8,389 nt of DNA from Candidatus Eiseniibacteriota bacterium (lineage in GTDB: Bacteria; Arandabacterota; Arandabacteria; JAGLYR01), in NCBI GenBank assembly GCA_023132135.1, contig JAGLYR010000071.1, positions 1 through 8,389 of the forward strand, read 5' to 3'. The translations under genes were made by a program, and so were the position numbers. The notes below the pieces were generated by a model. It ran no database searches. It was not told the DNA's origin and worked only from the letters and a program-made list of their open reading frames with translations. Within the stretch, counting starts at the first letter, position 1. Each line of letters opens with the position of its first letter. Of the stretch, positions 1-8,283 are shown piece after piece.

Positions 1-12
1 TACGCTTCGACC

Positions 13-31
13 CGACACGGTTGCCGTGTCG
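13..31. other. Perfect 8-bp inverted repeat before the first gene
   Basis: CGACACGG at 13-20 and CCGTGTCG at 24-31 are exact reverse complements around a 3-base TTG loop. There is no T run after it, so it does not look like an intrinsic terminator. It lies 14 bases before the ATG of the first glycosyltransferase, just upstream of its ribosome site. The upstream reading frame in phase with base 1 stays open to a TGA at 55-57, so this stretch may still be the 3' end of an upstream gene overlapping the next start by 13 bases; the window edge prevents a decision. Confidence 0.35.
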
Positions 32-35
32 CCAT

Positions 36-44
36 GGGGAAGAG
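36..44 (+). promoter_or_regulatory. Ribosome binding site deciding the ATG-45 start
   Basis: The purine-rich GGGGAAGAG runs directly up to ATG 45, with a GGGGA core four bases away. This supports ATG 45 over the in-frame TTG at 21. The protein from 45 begins MRVLIID, the usual first beta strand of a GT-B fold, whereas the longer form would add eight polar residues of no family resemblance. Confidence 0.55.
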
Positions 45-1229
45 ATGCGAGTACTGATCATCGACCACACCGGCGGAATCGAAACGTTCCGGGAGAGGTA
101 CCGAATCCTGGCCACCTACCCGGACGTGGAGCTCACGGTTCTGGCGCCCGAGACATGGATCGAGAACCAGCGCCTCGTGAGGGCGGGTACCGAGAGCCAC
201 GGGTACCGGATCCTCACGGGACGAGCGGGTTTCCGCGGGTACGAGAACCGGGGGTTCTTCTACACCGGACTCACCGCTGCGATCCGGAAAGCCCGGCCCG
301 ATGTGCTCCACCTGATAGAGGAACCCTTCAGTCTGATCGCTCTCCAATCTGCCCTGCTGTGCAAATCCATCTGCCCGAAGGCGAAAATCATCTTCTACTC
401 GTTCGACAACCTCCACATGGGTTTCAGGTATCCTTACCGGCCGTCCTGGGGCTACGGGCTAATTCAGCGAGCTGTCCATCGGCTGTCCGACTGCGGGGCC
501 GTATCCTGCAGGGATGCCAGAGAAATACTCCTTTCCCGGGGCTTCACCAAGCCGATCCGGTATTTGCCCTTCGGAATTGACCCGGACCTGTTCAGCAAAA
601 GAGATGCTTCGAGCCGGAGGGCTGCGCTTGGTCTCAGGAGTTTTGTCATCGGTTTCGCAGGACGACTGATCCCGGCCAAGGGGGTGGACATCCTGCTGGA
701 AGCCCTGGCGCGCCTCCGGACGGATTGGTCGTTTCTCGTGGTCGGCGGCGGGCCCGAGGCTGCGTCCATCGAGGACTTTGCCCGGTCCAGAGGATGGGAA
801 AATCGCTTGAGAATCGAGAGAAACGTGTCTCATGCCGATGTACCGGATGCAATGAATCTCATGGATGTACTGGTCCTTCCCTCTCGCACGACACCCAAAT
901 GGAAGGAGCAGTTCGGGCGGGTGCTGATTGAGGCCATGGGCTGTGCGATCCCCGTGGTCGGATCCGATTCGGGTGCAATCCCGGAGGTGATCGGCGACGG
1001 CGGCATCATTGTCCCGGAAGGCAACGCAGAGGAGCTTGCCCAGGCGTTAGGCGATCTCCAGCAGGATCCCCGAAAGCGAGCGAAGTTGGGCAGCGCCGGA
1101 AGAACGCGTGTTCTGAACCACTTCACGTGGCAACGCGTTGCGGAGCTGTACAAGACAATCTATGATGGTCTGCTGGATGAATCCCTGACATCGGAAGAGG
1201 TCCCGGAGTGGAGTACGTCTTCTTCATAG
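45..1229 (+). CDS. Glycosyltransferase family 4 (GT-B fold)
   Basis: Predicted cytoplasmic glycosyltransferase of 394 residues, the usual GT4 length. It would transfer a sugar from an activated donor to a growing surface glycan or lipid-linked acceptor; donor and acceptor cannot be read from the sequence. The N-terminal acceptor domain starts with MRVLIID and includes a 'PDVLHLIEEP' strand near residues 85-94. The C-terminal donor domain starts near residue 200 with IGFAGRLIPAKGVD (202-215), the typical GT4 'GRL...KG.D' motif. LVVGGGP follows at 231-237, then the EX7E signature (E288 in KEQFG, E296 in LIEAMG) and a PVVGSDSGAIPEVI segment (303-316). All expected motifs are intact. The last ~20 residues are Ser/Glu-rich and overlap the next gene by 22 bases, so the two are probably co-translated. 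It was probably reached by a promoter upstream of the window. Family is sure, substrate unknown. Confidence 0.92.
   Translation: MRVLIIDHTGGIETFRERYRILATYPDVELTVLAPETWIENQRLVRAGTESHGYRILTGRAGFRGYENRGFFYTGLTAAIRKARPDVLHLIEEPFSLIALQSALLCKSICPKAKIIFYSFDNLHMGFRYPYRPSWGYGLIQRAVHRLSDCGAVSCRDAREILLSRGFTKPIRYLPFGIDPDLFSKRDASSRRAALGLRSFVIGFAGRLIPAKGVDILLEALARLRTDWSFLVVGGGPEAASIEDFARSRGWENRLRIERNVSHADVPDAMNLMDVLVLPSRTTPKWKEQFGRVLIEAMGCAIPVVGSDSGAIPEVIGDGGIIVPEGNAEELAQALGDLQQDPRKRAKLGSAGRTRVLNHFTWQRVAELYKTIYDGLLDESLTSEEVPEWSTSSS
1193..1200 (+). promoter_or_regulatory. Strong ribosome binding site for the GT9 gene
   Basis: GGAAGAGG lies inside the 3' end of the preceding gene, seven bases before GTG 1208. 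It is the best Shine-Dalgarno match in the first operon and justifies the GTG start rather than the in-frame GTGs at 1241 or 1253. Its position within the upstream coding region points to translational coupling. Confidence 0.65.
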
Positions 1230-2329
1230 CATCTGCGCTCGTGAGCAGGATAGTGAATGCCCGCGGATTCTTCCGGCAGGGAGAGTTCGCTCGAATCCTG
1301 GTCTTCAAGCTGGATCACCTCGGCGACATCGTGACGGCCACACCCGCGCTGGAGTATCTGAGGAAGGAGTACCCGGAGGCGGAAATCACCCTCGTCGTGG
1401 GCCCCTGGGCCGCTCCTCTCCTGGACGGGTATCCGGGAATTGATCGTCTGGTTGTTTATGCCAGTCCGAAGTACGCGCGGGTCGTCGCGCCCTCCCAGGG
1501 CCGGAACCTGCGTTTCCTTCTTCCTCACACCCGGTATGATCTGATCGTCGGATTGCGGGACGACTGGTCGACTCTCGAGTTCTCCCTCTTTGCGGGAGCG
1601 AAGCGGCGGGCGGACCGGGGCACGGTGCGGCTTCGTGACAGGATCGGGAGAATCATGAGCCGTCTGCGGCGGGTTCCCGAACCCGCCCCGCTCCATGAGG
1701 TGGAAACCAACCTGAGAATCGTGGGCGCGGGCGCCCTTGAGGACTCCGCTGGTCCTCACCTTCAGATCCCGGAGGATGCCCTCGAGTGGGCCGACCGCGA
1801 GGTCGCGCGTCTTGCCGACAACGTGAAGGGGTACGTGGTTTTTCATCCCGGGGCATATTCCCCCCTGCGAAGATGGCCCATGGAGCGGTTTGTCGACGTG
1901 GCGCGCTGGCTTCGGCAGGCGCGGGACCTCGGTGTCGTCATCACCGGCTCGGCCCAGGAAACAGACGTTGCGGAAGCTATCGCCGGGAAGGCGGGACCCG
2001 GCGTTCTCTCTCTGGCAGGGAAAACGTCTCTTGCCCGGGCTGTGGCCGTGATCTCCCGTGCCCGGGCCATGCTCTCGGTGGATACCGGCCTGATGCACGT
2101 GGCCACCGCCGTGGGCACACCCGTCGTGGCCCTGGTGGGCCCCGAGGACCCCGCCCGCTTTGGCCCCTTCGGTCCCGATCACGTCACCCTCTATCACAAC
2201 TTCCCCTGTTCCCCCTGCAACCAGGTCCGCTGCTCGCGCAAGACCCCCGAGTGCATGGAAGCCATCACGGTCCAGGAAACCATCGACGCTCTCGCCCATT
2301 GCCTGGATCGCGCTGCCAGTACGCCGTAG
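1208..2329 (+). CDS. Glycosyltransferase family 9, ADP-heptose:LPS heptosyltransferase-like
   Basis: Predicted cytoplasmic or membrane-associated glycosyltransferase of 373 residues. Family 9 members move heptose from ADP-heptose to LPS inner core or related acceptors. The core begins RILVFKLDHLGDIVTATPAL (29-48), the GT9 N-terminal motif with the conserved GD pair at 39-40. YVVFHPGAYSPLRRWP (209-224) matches the family's 'HPGA...RRWP' motif, and GVVITGS (242-248) opens the next strand. SVDTGLMHVATAVGTPVVAL (290-309) is the hallmark D-T-G-x-x-H donor-site motif. Near the C-terminus are four cysteines (C334, C337, C342, C349) in a CSPC...C...CM pattern seen in many members. About 28 hydrophobic or basic residues precede the core, an extension that could help membrane binding. 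It overlaps the upstream GT4 by 22 bases. Which heptosyltransferase type it is (waaC/waaF/waaQ) cannot be settled, so no symbol is given. Confidence 0.92.
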   Translation: MEYVFFIASALVSRIVNARGFFRQGEFARILVFKLDHLGDIVTATPALEYLRKEYPEAEITLVVGPWAAPLLDGYPGIDRLVVYASPKYARVVAPSQGRNLRFLLPHTRYDLIVGLRDDWSTLEFSLFAGAKRRADRGTVRLRDRIGRIMSRLRRVPEPAPLHEVETNLRIVGAGALEDSAGPHLQIPEDALEWADREVARLADNVKGYVVFHPGAYSPLRRWPMERFVDVARWLRQARDLGVVITGSAQETDVAEAIAGKAGPGVLSLAGKTSLARAVAVISRARAMLSVDTGLMHVATAVGTPVVALVGPEDPARFGPFGPDHVTLYHNFPCSPCNQVRCSRKTPECMEAITVQETIDALAHCLDRAASTP

Positions 2330-2368
2330 CAGACGAATCCCTAACCCCCTCCCCGATTGTGTATTGAC

Positions 2369-2397
2369 TTGTTTGATGCCGGAGTATCTGATATCCT
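2369..2397 (+). promoter_or_regulatory. Possible promoter for the second glycosyltransferase unit
   Basis: The 75-base gap after the GT9 stop is noticeably AT-richer than its surroundings. TTGTTT (2369-2374) and TATCCT (2392-2397) are 17 bases apart, with a TG at 2389-2390 giving an extended -10. A better -35 box, TTGACT at 2364-2369, is present, but its 17-base partner (TCTGAT) is poor. Either way transcription would begin near 2404, practically at the GTG start. This rests on box matching only. Confidence 0.35.
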
Positions 2398-2404
2398 ACT
2401 GAGC

Positions 2405-3625
2405 GTGAATATCCTATTCCTCACATCCAGATTCCCGTACCCGCCAAACCGGGGCGACCGCGTCCGCACCTTCAATTTCCTCAAGCGGTTGTCGCTGGAC
2501 CACGACATTCAGCTCCTCTCATTTATCCAGTCGGAAGAGGAACTGCGCGGGCTACCCGCGCTGGAGCCCTACTGCCGGGTGGAGACGGTACACTTGCCCC
2601 GATCCAGATCCTACTGGAACATGCTGTCCCGCGCCGGATCGGCCCTGCCGTTCCAGACTCTGTACTACGAGTCCCGTGAGATGGAGCATCTGATCCATAC
2701 ACACACCAGTAATCGACGGTTCGATGTGGTCTACATACATCTGTTCCGGATGGCTCCCTTTGCTTTGGCCCTGCCCGGTGTGCCGCGGATTCTGGATCTG
2801 ACCGACTGCATTTCCGGGGAGTTGGCTGCATCCATTCCCCATCGTTCCTGGTTCCTGAGACGCCCCCTCCGGATGGAGGCGGACCGGATCCGCCGCTACG
2901 AAACCCGCGTCGCCAGCGGCTTCGATGAGGTCTGGACCATCTCCGAAGCCGATCGATCGGAGATCCTCCGGATGGCCCCCGGCGCGCCCGTCCACGTGGT
3001 TCCCAATGGAGTGGACGAGTCCCTCTACTCCGCGGACCCTAGCAGGGAAGGGATGCGATTGGGGTTCCTGGGAAACCTGAGCGTTCCGCACAACATCGAC
3101 GCTGCGCGCTTTCTAGCCCTGGAGATCATGCCTCGAATCCGGGGCGCTTTTGCCGATTCGCAGCTGGAATTGGTTGGTCACGGGCCCACCCGCATGGTCC
3201 GGCAGCTTCATGGGAGGAACGGAACTGTCGTGACCGGTCCGGTGGAAAACCTACGGGAGTGGTTCGAATCCCTGGCCGTGTTTGTTTCCCCACTACGGTT
3301 CGCCGCCGGAGTTCAGAACAAGATTCTGGAAGCCATGGCCGCAGGGGTTCCCGTCGTCACCACGTCCCACGGAAACCGGGGCCTGGCCGCCGGGCCGGAA
3401 AAAGAGATCCTCGTTCGTGATCGACCGGATGACTTCGCCGAGGCCGTGATTTCCCTCCTCCATGATCCCGCCCAGGCCGCGCGACTGGGACAGTGCGGCC
3501 GCTCCTTTGTCCGGGACAACTTCTCTTGGGATGCCGTGGCGGAACGTGTCGCGAATCTCGCCTGCCCGTCCATCCAGCGCGAAACCGTAACATCCCAGGA
3601 CCTGGTGAGAAATGGTGACTGGTGA
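2405..3625 (+). CDS. Glycosyltransferase family 4, resembling EpsH/PEP-CTERM-associated sugar transferases
   Basis: Predicted GT-B glycosyltransferase of 406 residues acting in the cytoplasm on an unidentified glycan. It starts MNILFLTSRFPYPPNRGDRV; this 'R-P-Y-P-P-N-x-G-D' opening and PLRFAAGVQNKILEAMA (296-312) recall the 'sugar transferase, PEP-CTERM/EpsH1 system associated' group (TIGR03087), from memory and unsearched. Other GT4 marks are VVPNGVD (198-204), LGFLGNLSVPHNIDA (219-233) and LELVGHGP (254-261). The first Glu of the EX7E motif is Ala (A301) and the second is E309, as is common in this subgroup. GTG 2405 is chosen because homologues begin exactly there; the frame is open upstream to TTG 2357, but that adds 16 residues with no family match. 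No ribosome site precedes GTG 2405. The 3' end overlaps the sulfatase-like gene by 14 bases. No exosortase or PEP-CTERM protein is in view. Confidence 0.88.
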   Translation: MNILFLTSRFPYPPNRGDRVRTFNFLKRLSLDHDIQLLSFIQSEEELRGLPALEPYCRVETVHLPRSRSYWNMLSRAGSALPFQTLYYESREMEHLIHTHTSNRRFDVVYIHLFRMAPFALALPGVPRILDLTDCISGELAASIPHRSWFLRRPLRMEADRIRRYETRVASGFDEVWTISEADRSEILRMAPGAPVHVVPNGVDESLYSADPSREGMRLGFLGNLSVPHNIDAARFLALEIMPRIRGAFADSQLELVGHGPTRMVRQLHGRNGTVVTGPVENLREWFESLAVFVSPLRFAAGVQNKILEAMAAGVPVVTTSHGNRGLAAGPEKEILVRDRPDDFAEAVISLLHDPAQAARLGQCGRSFVRDNFSWDAVAERVANLACPSIQRETVTSQDLVRNGDW

Positions 3626-5579
3626 CTCTGCGGTAGGCGCACCGAAGTCCGGCGGTCCGGGAAGCTGGGAGCTGGCCGTGGGCTGGACAGCCGAGGGATG
3701 CCTGGGGTTGCTCCAGGGCGCCGTCGTTCTCTCCGGTCTGTACGACTGGCCAGCCCGGACCCCGATTCTCCTGGCCTCGTTTCTTCTCCACAGCGTGCCG
3801 GGGTCCCTGCTGAGCGTGGCCTGGAGCCCCGTCTATCTCCGGCTGGGGAGAAGAATGGGGCGGAACCCGAGCCGCGTCGGAGCCTCTGCAGCTTTTCTTT
3901 CATTCGCTGTCTTCGTCCCCGCCGCGGTCTACATCCACGTGACCCGCCTTCCGGGGATCCACCTTCTCGCCCCCATCAGCATTGCCCTCACCATTGGCTT
4001 GATCCTCTTCTGCCTGGTACTCGTTCCCTTCTGGCGCATTATCCTGAGACAATGGTTCCGCAGGTTCGAGACCCGGGGCGGGCTCCGATCCCGCTCGAGC
4101 CTGGCATGGTTGGGCGTCCCCCTTCTGGCCATGATCTTTTTCTCCTTCCTCCCACTACTGGGTTTCGGGGACGGACTACGAGACCGGGGCGTCCCGCGGG
4201 AGTCGGCGCCACATACCAATGTCATCCTCTTGATCATGGATACGACGCGGGCCGACCACCTCTCCTGCTACGGGTACGAGAGACCGACCACTCCGTTTCT
4301 CGAAGCCCTGGCCGGCGGGGGGGTCCTCTTCGAAGACGCCGTTTCACCTTCGCCCTGGACACTGCCCTCCCACGCTTCCATCCTGTCGGGCCGCTTTCCC
4401 GGGAGCCACGGCGCCCACTTCCAGCACTGGCGGCTGGATGATTCGAACGTAACGCTGGCCGAGATCCTCAAGGAGCACGGATACACCACGGGGGCTTTTG
4501 TTTCCAACCCGTTCCTCTCCAGAACCTTCAATCTGGACCAGGGGTTTGACATCTACGACGATGAGCTGGAGCCGTGGATGCTGCGGACCTATCTCTGGCG
4601 GATCGCTGTGAAGATGAGATTGTCATCTCTGGTGGGTCCCCGGTATTCGGAGCGCCGCGCGGACGAGACGGCGGCTGCCATCCTCCGCTGGATCGAACGG
4701 ATTGGAGAGGGTCCCTACTTCCTGCTTGTGAACTTCAACGACCCCCACGCGCCCTACGACCCTCCGGAGGAATCCCGCAATCGCTTCCTCCGGGACCGGG
4801 ACTATGCCGGTCCGCTTCTCGATCCCGCATCGCACGACGATTTCGTCCTCGTTGACGAGGCCGGTCTCTCGGCCCGGGACATGAACTATCTCATGGATCT
4901 GTACGACGGGGAGATCGGGTATCTGGACGGCGTCATGGGACGGCTTCTTCAGATTCTTGAAGAGAAATCGGGGGACAGCGGGACTCTGGTTGTCGTCGTC
5001 GGCGATCACGGGGAATCCTTCGGCGAGCACGGTCTGCTGGGCCACCGGGGTTCGCTGTACCACCAGACCCTCGGGGTGCCTCTCATCCTCTCCTGGCCGG
5101 GGACTCTTCCCGAAGGAATTCGGATTCCATCCCGGGTGCAGAGTCTCGACATCGCGCCGACCATTCTCGATTTGCTGGGCCTGCCGGTTCCCGGGGAAAT
5201 GGAGGGCGAGAGTCTCGTTTCGCTACAGGACCCGCCACAGACAAGTGAACCCACCACCCTCACTGCCCGCGACTGCTACGCCGAGCTCTACCCCGAGCCG
5301 GACCTCGTGAAGCGCTATCCCCGGATGGGACGCCGGCTCACGGCCCTCTACCGCGGCTCCTGGAAACTGATCGCGGGTGATGACGGGTCCAGCGAGATCT
5401 TTGATCTGGCCGCCGATCCCGGCGAGGAGAGCAATCTGAGTTCCTCCGATCCCGAGATCACGGCCAACCTCACGGCCCTCCTGACCGCCTGGCGGGGAAC
5501 CGGGGAAACCGCCACCACGGCCGTTCCCCTCGATGCGGCCACCGCCGACCGCCTGCGGTCATTGGGATACTTGCAGTAG
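3612..5579 (+). CDS. Membrane-anchored sulfatase/alkaline-phosphatase-fold enzyme with Thr nucleophile
   Basis: Predicted inner-membrane enzyme of 655 residues. Five hydrophobic segments (about 26-44, 51-70, 93-110, 117-140, 165-184) precede a sulfatase-fold domain (about 202-525) that should face the periplasm. The domain opens VILLIMDTTRADHLSCYGY (204-222). The nucleophile region PWTLPSHASILSG (248-260) has Thr250 where true sulfatases have the formylglycine Cys or Ser, and His254 where they have Arg. NDPHAPYDPP (376-385) and VVVGDHGESFGEHG (461-474) supply the remaining ligands; likely metal residues are D210, T250, D465 and H466. The protein ends RLRSLGYLQ, a tail common among bacterial proteins labelled sulfatase. 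Five helices plus Thr resemble LtaS and EptA, so phosphoethanolamine or phosphoglycerol transfer is a reasonable guess; sulfate-ester hydrolysis is less likely. ATG 3612 overlaps the upstream gene by 14 bases (GGTGAG at 3604-3609 is close), implying coupling. Fold is sure, reaction uncertain. Confidence 0.88.
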   Translation: MVTGDSAVGAPKSGGPGSWELAVGWTAEGCLGLLQGAVVLSGLYDWPARTPILLASFLLHSVPGSLLSVAWSPVYLRLGRRMGRNPSRVGASAAFLSFAVFVPAAVYIHVTRLPGIHLLAPISIALTIGLILFCLVLVPFWRIILRQWFRRFETRGGLRSRSSLAWLGVPLLAMIFFSFLPLLGFGDGLRDRGVPRESAPHTNVILLIMDTTRADHLSCYGYERPTTPFLEALAGGGVLFEDAVSPSPWTLPSHASILSGRFPGSHGAHFQHWRLDDSNVTLAEILKEHGYTTGAFVSNPFLSRTFNLDQGFDIYDDELEPWMLRTYLWRIAVKMRLSSLVGPRYSERRADETAAAILRWIERIGEGPYFLLVNFNDPHAPYDPPEESRNRFLRDRDYAGPLLDPASHDDFVLVDEAGLSARDMNYLMDLYDGEIGYLDGVMGRLLQILEEKSGDSGTLVVVVGDHGESFGEHGLLGHRGSLYHQTLGVPLILSWPGTLPEGIRIPSRVQSLDIAPTILDLLGLPVPGEMEGESLVSLQDPPQTSEPTTLTARDCYAELYPEPDLVKRYPRMGRRLTALYRGSWKLIAGDDGSSEIFDLAADPGEESNLSSSDPEITANLTALLTAWRGTGETATTAVPLDAATADRLRSLGYLQ

Positions 5580-5691: not shown

Positions 5692-8283
5692 ATGCGACGA
5701 GCTGTGCTCGCAATCCTCTTCTCCACGATACTGCTGCCGGTTCCGGGGATCGGCCAGTGCGACCTCGACTTCGACGCGGCGAGAACCTATCCCGTCGGCG
5801 CGCGCCCCTTCTCTGTGGCCAGGGGCGACTTCAACAGCGACGGGATCGATGACCTAGCCACCGCCAACCACGACGACGCCGGCGTCACGATTCTCCTGGG
5901 GCGTGGTTCGGCCGGCGTGGGCGAGGGAGGTTTCACACCCTTCGCAACCTACTCCACCGCGGATGGACCTCGCTACATCCTGACCGCCGACTTCGATGAA
6001 AACGGGATCCTCGACCTGGCCGTGACCCATAACTTCGACGACGTGGTATCGATCCTCCTCGGAAACGGCTCGGGCGGAAACGGCGACGGCACATTCCAGC
6101 CGCCCGTCCACTACCCCGTGGCGGCCGGGCCCACATGGCTCGCCGCAGGGGATTTTAACGCGGACGACATCCTGGATCTGGTCTCAGCGGACCTGTTCAG
6201 CGGATTCATTTCGGTTCTCATCGGCAGCGGGTCCTCCGGAGTGGGCGACGGCACATTCCAGCCCAGGGTCGACTACCCGGCCGGGGCCAGTCCCAATTCC
6301 GTGACCGCGGCGGACTTCGACAGCGACGGGATCCTCGATCTGGCAGTCGCGGACATGGTGGACGACGACGTCCTCATCTTCCTGGGCAATGGATCCAGCG
6401 GTCAGGGCGACGGGACCTTCAGCCTCTTCGGGAGCTACGACACACCCAACGGCACGGCCTGCGTAATCACGGGGGATTTCGACCGCGACGGCATTACGGA
6501 CATCGGGGCATCCAACTACTTCGACGACACCGTGTCCATCCTCATCGGCAACGGCTCCGAGGGCGCCGGGGACGGGACTTTCCAGACGCCCCTGAACTAC
6601 CCCGCCGGCTGCGGACCGCCGGCGATGACCTCCGGCTATCTGAACGACGATCTCATTCTGGACCTGGCCGTCATCAACTACCACGACGACGCCGTGTCCA
6701 TCCTCTTCGGAAGCGGTGACGGCAGTTTCCAGGACCCCGTTCCCTACCCGGTGGGGGACGGGCCGGAGCTGGTCCGGACAGGGGATTACAACGAGGACGG
6801 GGTTCAGGATCTGGCCGTGGTGGGCGCCTGGAGCAACGACGTCACAATCCTGATTGGCCGGCCCGAAAACGATGGAACATTCACAGCCGCCGCCCAGCGC
6901 AGCGCGGGCGGCAGTCCCATGGACATCATTGCAGCCGATTTCAATGAAGACGGATTCATGGATCTCGCGGTGGCGGATTCTTTGATGAACAGGGTGCGAA
7001 TCCTGATCAACGACGCGACAACCGGCGCTTCCTTCCTGCCCAGGACCGGCTACGCCGCCGGAGCTTCTCCCGTGGCCCTGGTTGCCGGGGATTTCGACGA
7101 AGACGGCATCCTGGACCTCGCGCTGGCGGACTACATCGGTGATGCCGTCTCTATTCTCATTGGAAACGGCTCGGCCGGAATCGGAGACGGCACGTTTCAG
7201 CCGCCCGCCGGGTACGTTGCGGGGAATCGTCCCCGCGGGCTCGTCACCTGTGATTTCGACGAGGATGGAATCCTAGACCTCGCGGTCGCCACGCGCCTGG
7301 GCCAGGGCGTATCTGTTCTCCGGGGCAACGGCACCGGCGGCGTGGGCGACGGGACCTTCGCGGCGTTCCTCGACTACTCCGTGGGCCTCGAGTGCGTGGA
7401 TCTTGCGGCCGGCGATTTCAACGAAGACGACATCCTCGATCTGGCCGTTGCCACCCGAGGAAGCGGAGGAATTGCCATCCTCGTCGGAAATGGACTGGGC
7501 GGTGTGGGCGATGGGACCTTCGGATCCCCCACCTGGTTCCCGGCAGGATCCGGACCGGCTTCCGTTCTGGCCGCACTGCTGGACGGCGACGACACACTGG
7601 ATCTGGCGGTAGCCTGTGAGACGGCCGACAGCCTCGTTGTCCTGGTGGGCAACGGCGACGGCACGTTCCAGCCCCCGCTGGGGATCGGGGTAGTGGGAGA
7701 ACCCCGCGGAGCATGCGCCGCCGATCTGGACAACGACGGACATCCAGACCTGGTCACTGCAAACAGGGGCGCCTCCAGCCTGTCAATCCTGCAGGCCGAC
7801 TCCACCCTCCGCTACCTGGACTATTCCCACTGGGCGAATCTGGGCGCAGGCGAGTATCCGGCGGCTGTGATCGCGTGCGACCTCAATCACGATGATCTCC
7901 CGGACCTGATCACAGCGGACGAGGGGTCGGGAACTGTGTCGATTGTCCTCAATGCATCGGACTGCGGGACCACGCTCGTCGCCGGCGGCGGAACTCCGGA
8001 TGACGGCTCGCTGGAACCGCTCCACATCCGTCCGAACCCCTTCCGCCATGGTACGCATCTCACGTTCTCCGTTCCGTCGCGGGAGGTCTGCACCGTCTCG
8101 ATCTTCGACGTGACCGGGAGGCGCGTCCGGCAGCTGATGGAAGAATCTCTGGACCCCGGTGTGCACGAAGTCTCATGGGACGGGTGCAACAACCGGGGCG
8201 GAAGGGTGTCTCCCGGCATCTACTTCTGCCGCGTCTCGGCGGGGCCGAACACCCGCGTTGCAAAGCTGGCCGTCATCCGATAG
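5692..8283 (+). CDS. Secreted FG-GAP/VCBS beta-propeller protein with C-terminal FlgD-like sorting domain
   Basis: Predicted exported protein of 863 residues. MRR followed by a hydrophobic stretch (4-18) and P-G-I-G (18-21) forms a signal peptide, with cleavage likely after G21; Cys23 is preceded by Gln, so a lipobox is unlikely. Residues 45-755 hold 14 blades of 49-54 residues, most with a calcium-type loop such as [13 protein letters not shown] and a turn such as [15 protein letters not shown]. Blade starts are 45, 99, 153, 207, 261, 315, 364, 415, 466, 520, 574, 628, 677 and 729. After a Gly-rich linker (764-772), residues 777-863 form a small Ig-like domain with RPNPFRHG (780-787), [12 protein letters not shown] (804-815), [11 protein letters not shown] (827-837) and SPGIYFCRV (840-848), as in FlgD-like/T9SS type A sorting tails. 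FG-GAP propellers often bind ligands, carbohydrate or other proteins, but no catalytic domain is visible. Function is probably adhesion or surface binding. It has its own promoter. Confidence 0.9.
5824..7956 (+). repeat. Fourteen tandem FG-GAP blades (about 162-base period)
   Basis: Blades 1-5 and 9-11 are each exactly 54 codons long; blades 6 and 12 are 49, and blades 7, 8 and 13 are 51-52. Acidic loops of the D-x-D/N-x-D-G-x-x-D-L type are well kept in blades 1, 2, 4, 5, 7-10 and 13, partly altered in 3, 11 and 14 (Asp for Gly), and degenerate in 6 and 12. Fourteen blades would suit two seven-bladed propellers, the integrin-type architecture for FG-GAP repeats. Confidence 0.85.
6082..6263 (+). 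repeat. Identical 20-base segments one blade apart
   Basis: GGCGACGGCACATTCCAGCC occurs at 6082-6101 and again at 6244-6263, exactly 162 bases (54 codons) apart. It encodes the GDGTFQP turn of blades 2 and 3. Close variants recur in other blades, for example near 7186-7205. Identity including synonymous positions suggests fairly recent blade duplication or gene conversion. Confidence 0.7.

Follow-up and report, generated by a model that had tools for sequence, protein, structure and literature searches.

Many prokaryotic proteins carry the label 'sulfatase' from a PF00884 match alone. The question raised by the present locus is whether one of these, a 655-aa protein encoded at 3612..5579 on the forward strand of the window (the whole stretch of DNA analysed, 8,389 nucleotides), removes a group from a surface glycan or adds one. 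We consider addition more likely, with sulfate as the best guess for the group, because key active-site residues of a sulfatase are missing, because the gene lies in a sugar-polymer gene cluster, and because the protein's C-terminal tail (L-x-x-LGY, the 'LGY tail' hereafter) is common to enzymes of sulfate import and activation.

The gene, its product and its neighbours

The open reading frame list and a profile match identify the product as a membrane-anchored, Thr-type enzyme of the alkaline phosphatase (AP) superfamily. Its membrane region occupies about residues 20-190, the PF00884 domain residues 203-523 (E=5.6e-47 in a profile search), and a sulfatase-type C-terminal domain, SGSH_C, is matched beyond. 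Upstream on the same strand are three glycosyltransferase genes: a GT4 (3..1229, by profile match; its 5' end may be outside the window), a GT9 heptosyltransferase-like protein (1208..2329; TIGR02195 just over cut-off), and a second GT4, a relative of the XrtA/PEP-CTERM type (2357..3625; TIGR03087, below cut-off), whose 3' end overlaps the start of the 655-aa coding sequence at 3612. The gene downstream (5692-8283) encodes an FG-GAP repeat protein whose C-terminus matches the T9SS type A sorting domain (27.5 bits against a cut-off of 23).

An active site without the formylglycine signal

A sequence-only reading of this DNA had pointed to the motif TLPSH at residues 250-254, in place of C/S-x-P-x-R, and had concluded that the protein is probably not a sulfatase. 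The translation bears out the motif, and the residue numbers given there (D210, T250-H254, H379, D465 and H466) agree with it; the segment singled out at that time, 4314-5042, corresponds to residues 235-477, and H478 falls just beyond it. In alignments, D210-T-T-R-A-D215 (4239..4256, forward strand, as are all features of the gene) provides the first metal ligand, D210, followed by a threonine where sulfatases carry a second D/Q. T250-L-P-S-H254 (4359..4373) covers the nucleophile position, H379 (4746..4748) lies within P-H-x-P-Y, and D465-H466 (5004..5009, in DHGES) are metal ligands. In the reference alignment, H478 (5043..5045) stands where formylglycine sulfatases and phosphonate monoester hydrolases (PMH) of the DHG type have K.

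Four catalytic positions thus differ jointly from the formylglycine enzymes (211, D/Q to T; 250, C/S to T; 254, R to H; and 478, K to H), the annotated references being choline sulfatase, PehA, arylsulfatases, YidJ, AslA, YdeN and others, and the comparison at position 478 being with those of the DHG type. In the arylsulfatase EfAS, mutants of Q21, C61, R65 and K324 lose much or all of their activity (PMC12421950); when mapped by sequence, these residues appear to correspond to positions 211, 250, 254 and 478. In a domain alignment of the 655-aa protein with 15 homologs (16 sequences, drawn from the source genome and related genomes), ten key positions are invariant (D210, R213, D215, T250, P252, H266, H379, D465, H466 and H478), and TLPSH is therefore neither a chance occurrence nor a lone mutation. 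The source genome (G000, 345 contigs) encodes 14 full-length PF00884 paralogs, the 655-aa protein included; 13 have Thr at the nucleophile position and one (L010) reads STGGH.

That the enzyme might nonetheless be a true sulfatase, working without formylglycine, is suggested by its closest solved folds, which are those of sulfatases (the C-terminal SGSH_C region included), and by five PF03781 FGE-like loci in the genome. Against this, the protein lacks C/S at the modified position, as well as the Arg and the Lys, the C/S-x-P-x-R signal is found in none of the 14 paralogs, and the protein falls outside the formylglycine clade (see below); this explanation is accordingly regarded as highly improbable.

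Kinship by tree, sequence and fold

In a tree built after removal of the four diagnostic columns (by a quick method, with SH-aLRT support only and with long branches present), 12 of 13 formylglycine enzymes fall together in a clade, with a starred support of 100, from which the 655-aa protein is excluded; the Thr-type proteins, this one among them, fall outside it. The protein therefore does not cluster with proven sulfatases, which was the check that the sequence-only reading had proposed, and clustering with EptA is likewise absent, the three E. coli Ept proteins forming a separate starred group. At the level of sequence, the conclusion that the protein is not a sulfatase is thus well supported, both by the four changed positions and by its place outside the formylglycine clade. 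In the same tree, a C-L-P-S-R protein (L056:5911-7455) grouped, on a long branch, with Thr-type proteins that have no LGY tail; it is perhaps misplaced, or the formylglycine signal may have arisen a second time.

Both its sequence and its fold place the domain nearer to sulfatases and PMH than to EptA, with sequence matches down to E 1.5e-64 and fold matches of Z 32-37 (against 6hr5, Z 37.3 and rmsd 2.9 over 352 aligned residues); the PbgA/YejM periplasmic domain is also matched in fold, at Z 32. The fold comparisons are the sole use made of a domain-only AF2 model (pLDDT 75, pTM 0.82), in which some segments on the active-site side, around part of the metal site, are of low confidence; a full-length model from 8 sequences (pLDDT 52) was not used. 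Neither EptA nor LtaS appears in the 50 fold matches listed for the domain model, which is no sign of their true absence. With the formylglycine sulfatases and PMH (PF00884, S1) the protein has in common the fold, the ligands D210, D465 and H466, and the SGSH_C region, and differs from them at the four positions described above; PMH/PehA combine a Cys nucleophile with an Arg and a Lys, all three of which are replaced, and the corresponding profile (NF045661) scores 101.9 against a cut-off of 900.

The top matches by sequence and fold are hydrolases (PMH, choline sulfatase and arylsulfatase), and Thr-type AP enzymes do hydrolyse phosphate esters, as is established for AP and NPP. An exported Thr-nucleophile phosphatase or phosphodiesterase, trimming the glycan or a lipid-linked precursor, has therefore to be weighed. 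Against it count the absence of the Cys, Arg and Lys that PMH possess, the position of the gene inside a cluster that builds a glycan, and a tail belonging to the sulfate pathway, and we rank hydrolysis third among the candidate reactions, as an unlikely one.

Membrane architecture and the comparison with phosphotransferases

The N-terminal region (3675..4166) contains five hydrophobic segments in a Kyte-Doolittle analysis, at about residues 22-40, 52-70, 90-108, 122-140 and 167-185, and loops 2 and 4 are strongly positive, which together predict an N-in topology with the catalytic domain outside. As judged by hydropathy and loop charge, this predicted plan matches that of EptA, EptB, EptC and LapC. 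Within the genome it is common to four paralogs; further paralogs have a single N-terminal anchor, in several cases one with a lipobox-like end. A catalytic domain predicted to lie outside the membrane favours a lipid-borne donor.

E. coli EptA has T, T and H at the positions equivalent to 211, 250 and 478, as does the 655-aa protein, and DHGES is found in both. EptA, EptB and EptC also have in common with it the five-segment plan with an outside AP domain and a Thr at the nucleophile position, but the 655-aa protein differs from them in having D rather than E as first ligand, a sulfatase-type C-terminal domain, and the LGY tail. LtaS/OpgB and LapC/PbgA/YejM have a similar membrane-anchored AP fold, with no close sequence match to them apparent, and LapC, unlike the 655-aa protein, lacks the active-site residues in the reference alignment. 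The LtaS and OpgB families are not among the profile matches of the protein (OpgB aligned poorly with the reference set), and its best Ept NCBIfam score, 50.8 bits, is far under the cut-off of 561.

PS decarboxylase (PF02666), which covers only the PS-decarboxylase route to phosphatidylethanolamine, was found in none of the eight genomes of the class, and PgsA is present in the source genome (TIGR00560, 138.6 bits against a cut-off of 109.1). Phosphatidylglycerol is for these reasons the more likely of the two phospho-donors, and a phosphoglycerol donor is accordingly possible.

In such a reaction, T250 would move phosphoglycerol or another polar head group from an outside phospholipid to the glycan, the EptA/LtaS/OpgB-like enzyme working as LtaS and OpgB do from outside both families. 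The topology, the Thr, DH and H478 residues, the presence of PgsA and the glycan gene cluster all agree with this, and it would remove the difficulty of finding a donor for an exported enzyme; Thr is the classical phosphoryl-transfer nucleophile of the AP superfamily, a point that counts against sulfation. Against it stand the Ept score and the separate Ept clade, the missing PS decarboxylase (which makes phosphoethanolamine unlikely), and a tail common to APS kinase and CysA that would be left unexplained. We rank phosphoglycerol-type transfer second, as a doubtful alternative. The sequence-only reading had preferred EptA/LtaS-type transfer of phosphoethanolamine or phosphoglycerol: its Thr and His residues stand and are joined by the predicted topology, but the protein lies no nearer to EptA, and the preference itself is not established, given a kinship nearer to sulfatases and PMH and a tail and gene content that point to sulfate.

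The LGY tail and its carriers

The 655-aa protein ends in RLRSLGYLQ, and sequence comparison finds its tail (L648-RSLGY-LQ, 5553..5576) also on APS kinase, CysA, RHH-like proteins and the haloarchaeal proteins Agl30 and Agl31. L-x-x-LGY stands at the end of the AP domain in all 14 of the genome's own paralogs, in 11 at the terminus and in 3 before a C-terminal extension. Among the homologs gathered, the tail is present in 37 of 42 non-formylglycine proteins and absent from 19 of 19 formylglycine enzymes (Fisher p 1.4e-11, for rows that are not independent), and across the fetched genome loci the motif occurs in 30 of 2465 frames, against 1 for the reversed motif. Its carriers in those loci are Thr-type PF00884 proteins, two PF01663 proteins, APS kinases, a sulfate ABC transporter ATPase (CysA, which adjoins CysW; TIGR00968 over cut-off), and small RHH-like proteins. 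On APS kinase the tail is an add-on beyond the kinase domain, seen in 8 of 8 genomes of the class and in G031, G008 and G025; in seven other genomes, the APS kinases read do not have it. APS kinase is present in 11 of 11 genomes whose best match has the tail (p 5e-5, or 0.015 with the class collapsed).

Agl30 (VNG1056C, Q9HQQ3) and Agl31 (VNG1057C, Q9HQQ2) of Halobacterium salinarum are 'sulfatase-like' AP-superfamily proteins, encoded within a glycosylation cluster, for which gene deletion and heterologous expression established N-glycan sulfotransferase activity (PMC11980604). According to the cloning primers listed in Table 1 of that paper, the two proteins end in HLEDLGYL and LEELGYT; the paper was the only publication found in a search for the LGY tail or AP-family sulfotransferases. 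The 655-aa protein resembles both in superfamily, annotation, glycan cluster and extreme C-terminal L-x-x-LGY tail, and its kinship to them rests on tail and annotation. They differ in placement: Agl31 is a cytosolic protein and Agl30 is predicted to have one transmembrane segment at most, whereas the 655-aa protein has five, with its domain predicted outside. Haloarchaeal Thr-type homologs sit among glycosyltransferases, and one such cluster of Thr-type proteins and GT4 genes also encodes a sulfate-permease-like protein and a CysD-like protein that itself carries the tail.

Thr-type proteins also occur without the tail. One is encoded at L032, in a genome (G034) where neither APS kinase nor ATP sulfurylase was detected, nor PS decarboxylase; Thr alone therefore does not mean sulfation, and the idea that it marks PAPS genomes was dropped. 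The L032 protein suggests that tail-less Thr types have another function. On a Paenibacillus plasmid (L138:19959-24383), cysC lies between two tail-less Thr-type 'sulfatases', and one with C-C-P-A-R adjoins.

Sulfate activation and a proposed sulfation system

ATP sulfurylase and APS kinase are encoded, on one contig, in all eight genomes of the class, and PAPS reductase (PF01507) exceeds its cut-off in none of the eight; from this we infer that PAPS is probably made for sulfation rather than assimilation. These genomes are mostly fragmentary or incomplete, and counts inside one class are not independent. The commonest PAPS-using sulfotransferases (PF13469 and PF00685) were not found in G000. 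Where checked, a PF01663 protein is encoded between ATP sulfurylase and APS kinase. This conserved operon, ATP sulfurylase - PF01663 AP-superfamily protein - APS kinase, is seen at G000:C120 (L131) and at L132-L137; a second PF01663 gene lies nearby, and the operon's PF01663 proteins have no LGY tail. Tiny proteins ending in the tail are encoded next to the sulfate-activation genes (L131:10789-11076, L175:1493-1741 and L136:192-389 on the reverse strand, L131:5143-5346 on the forward), one with a weak RHH_1 match (RHH/CopG-like). At L191, a tailed sulfate-transporter ATPase (6350-7504) and a PF01663 protein that also bears the tail (9953-11887) are encoded within a few kb of each other, both on the forward strand.

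The explanation ranked first, to which we give an even chance, is that the 655-aa protein is anchored in the membrane and modifies a glycan as a transferase of a sulfation system, with T250 in place of formylglycine. A metal site of D210, D465 and H466 would hold T250, which would accept a sulfuryl group and then donate it to a hydroxyl on the glycan that the neighbouring glycosyltransferases produce, much as Agl30 and Agl31 sulfate a haloarchaeal glycan. The source genome has the genes to make PAPS in the cell. However, PAPS is cytosolic, and the main objection is that the catalytic domain is predicted, from positive-inside loops, to be extracytoplasmic and thus away from it; PAPS is not known to occur outside the membrane, where several paralogs that look like lipoproteins would also sit. 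A simple PAPS-using, Agl31-like enzyme is weakened by this predicted topology, and a membrane-carried sulfate donor would be needed because of it. Other consumers of PAPS are also conceivable: the PF01663 proteins encoded in the sat-cysC operon could use it themselves.

A broader version, which we hold more tentatively and at rather less than an even chance, is a previously undescribed sulfation system in which one common C-terminal tail marks the components (sulfate ABC ATPase, CysD-like protein, APS kinase, small RHH-like proteins and PF00884/PF01663 enzymes), the Thr-type AP enzymes being its sulfotransferases and the exported ones using a membrane-borne sulfate donor. Most simply, the tail would belong to the C-terminal end of the AP domain and be mimicked by other proteins of the sulfate pathway as a docking tag, which raises an immediate question of protein interaction.

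If the Thr-type, LGY-tailed branch does build sulfated (or phosphorylated) glycans, its 'sulfatase' labels describe the reaction the wrong way round. AP-superfamily sulfotransferases would then extend past the two haloarchaeal examples, and the LGY tail would serve as a simple sequence tag for finding whole sulfation systems.

AP-superfamily proteins on viral contigs (L196, L197, L204, L207 and L209) also end in the LGY tail, with non-formylglycine motifs (SDPNY, TLPEI) where these were read; C-x-P-x-R types on such contigs are tail-less.
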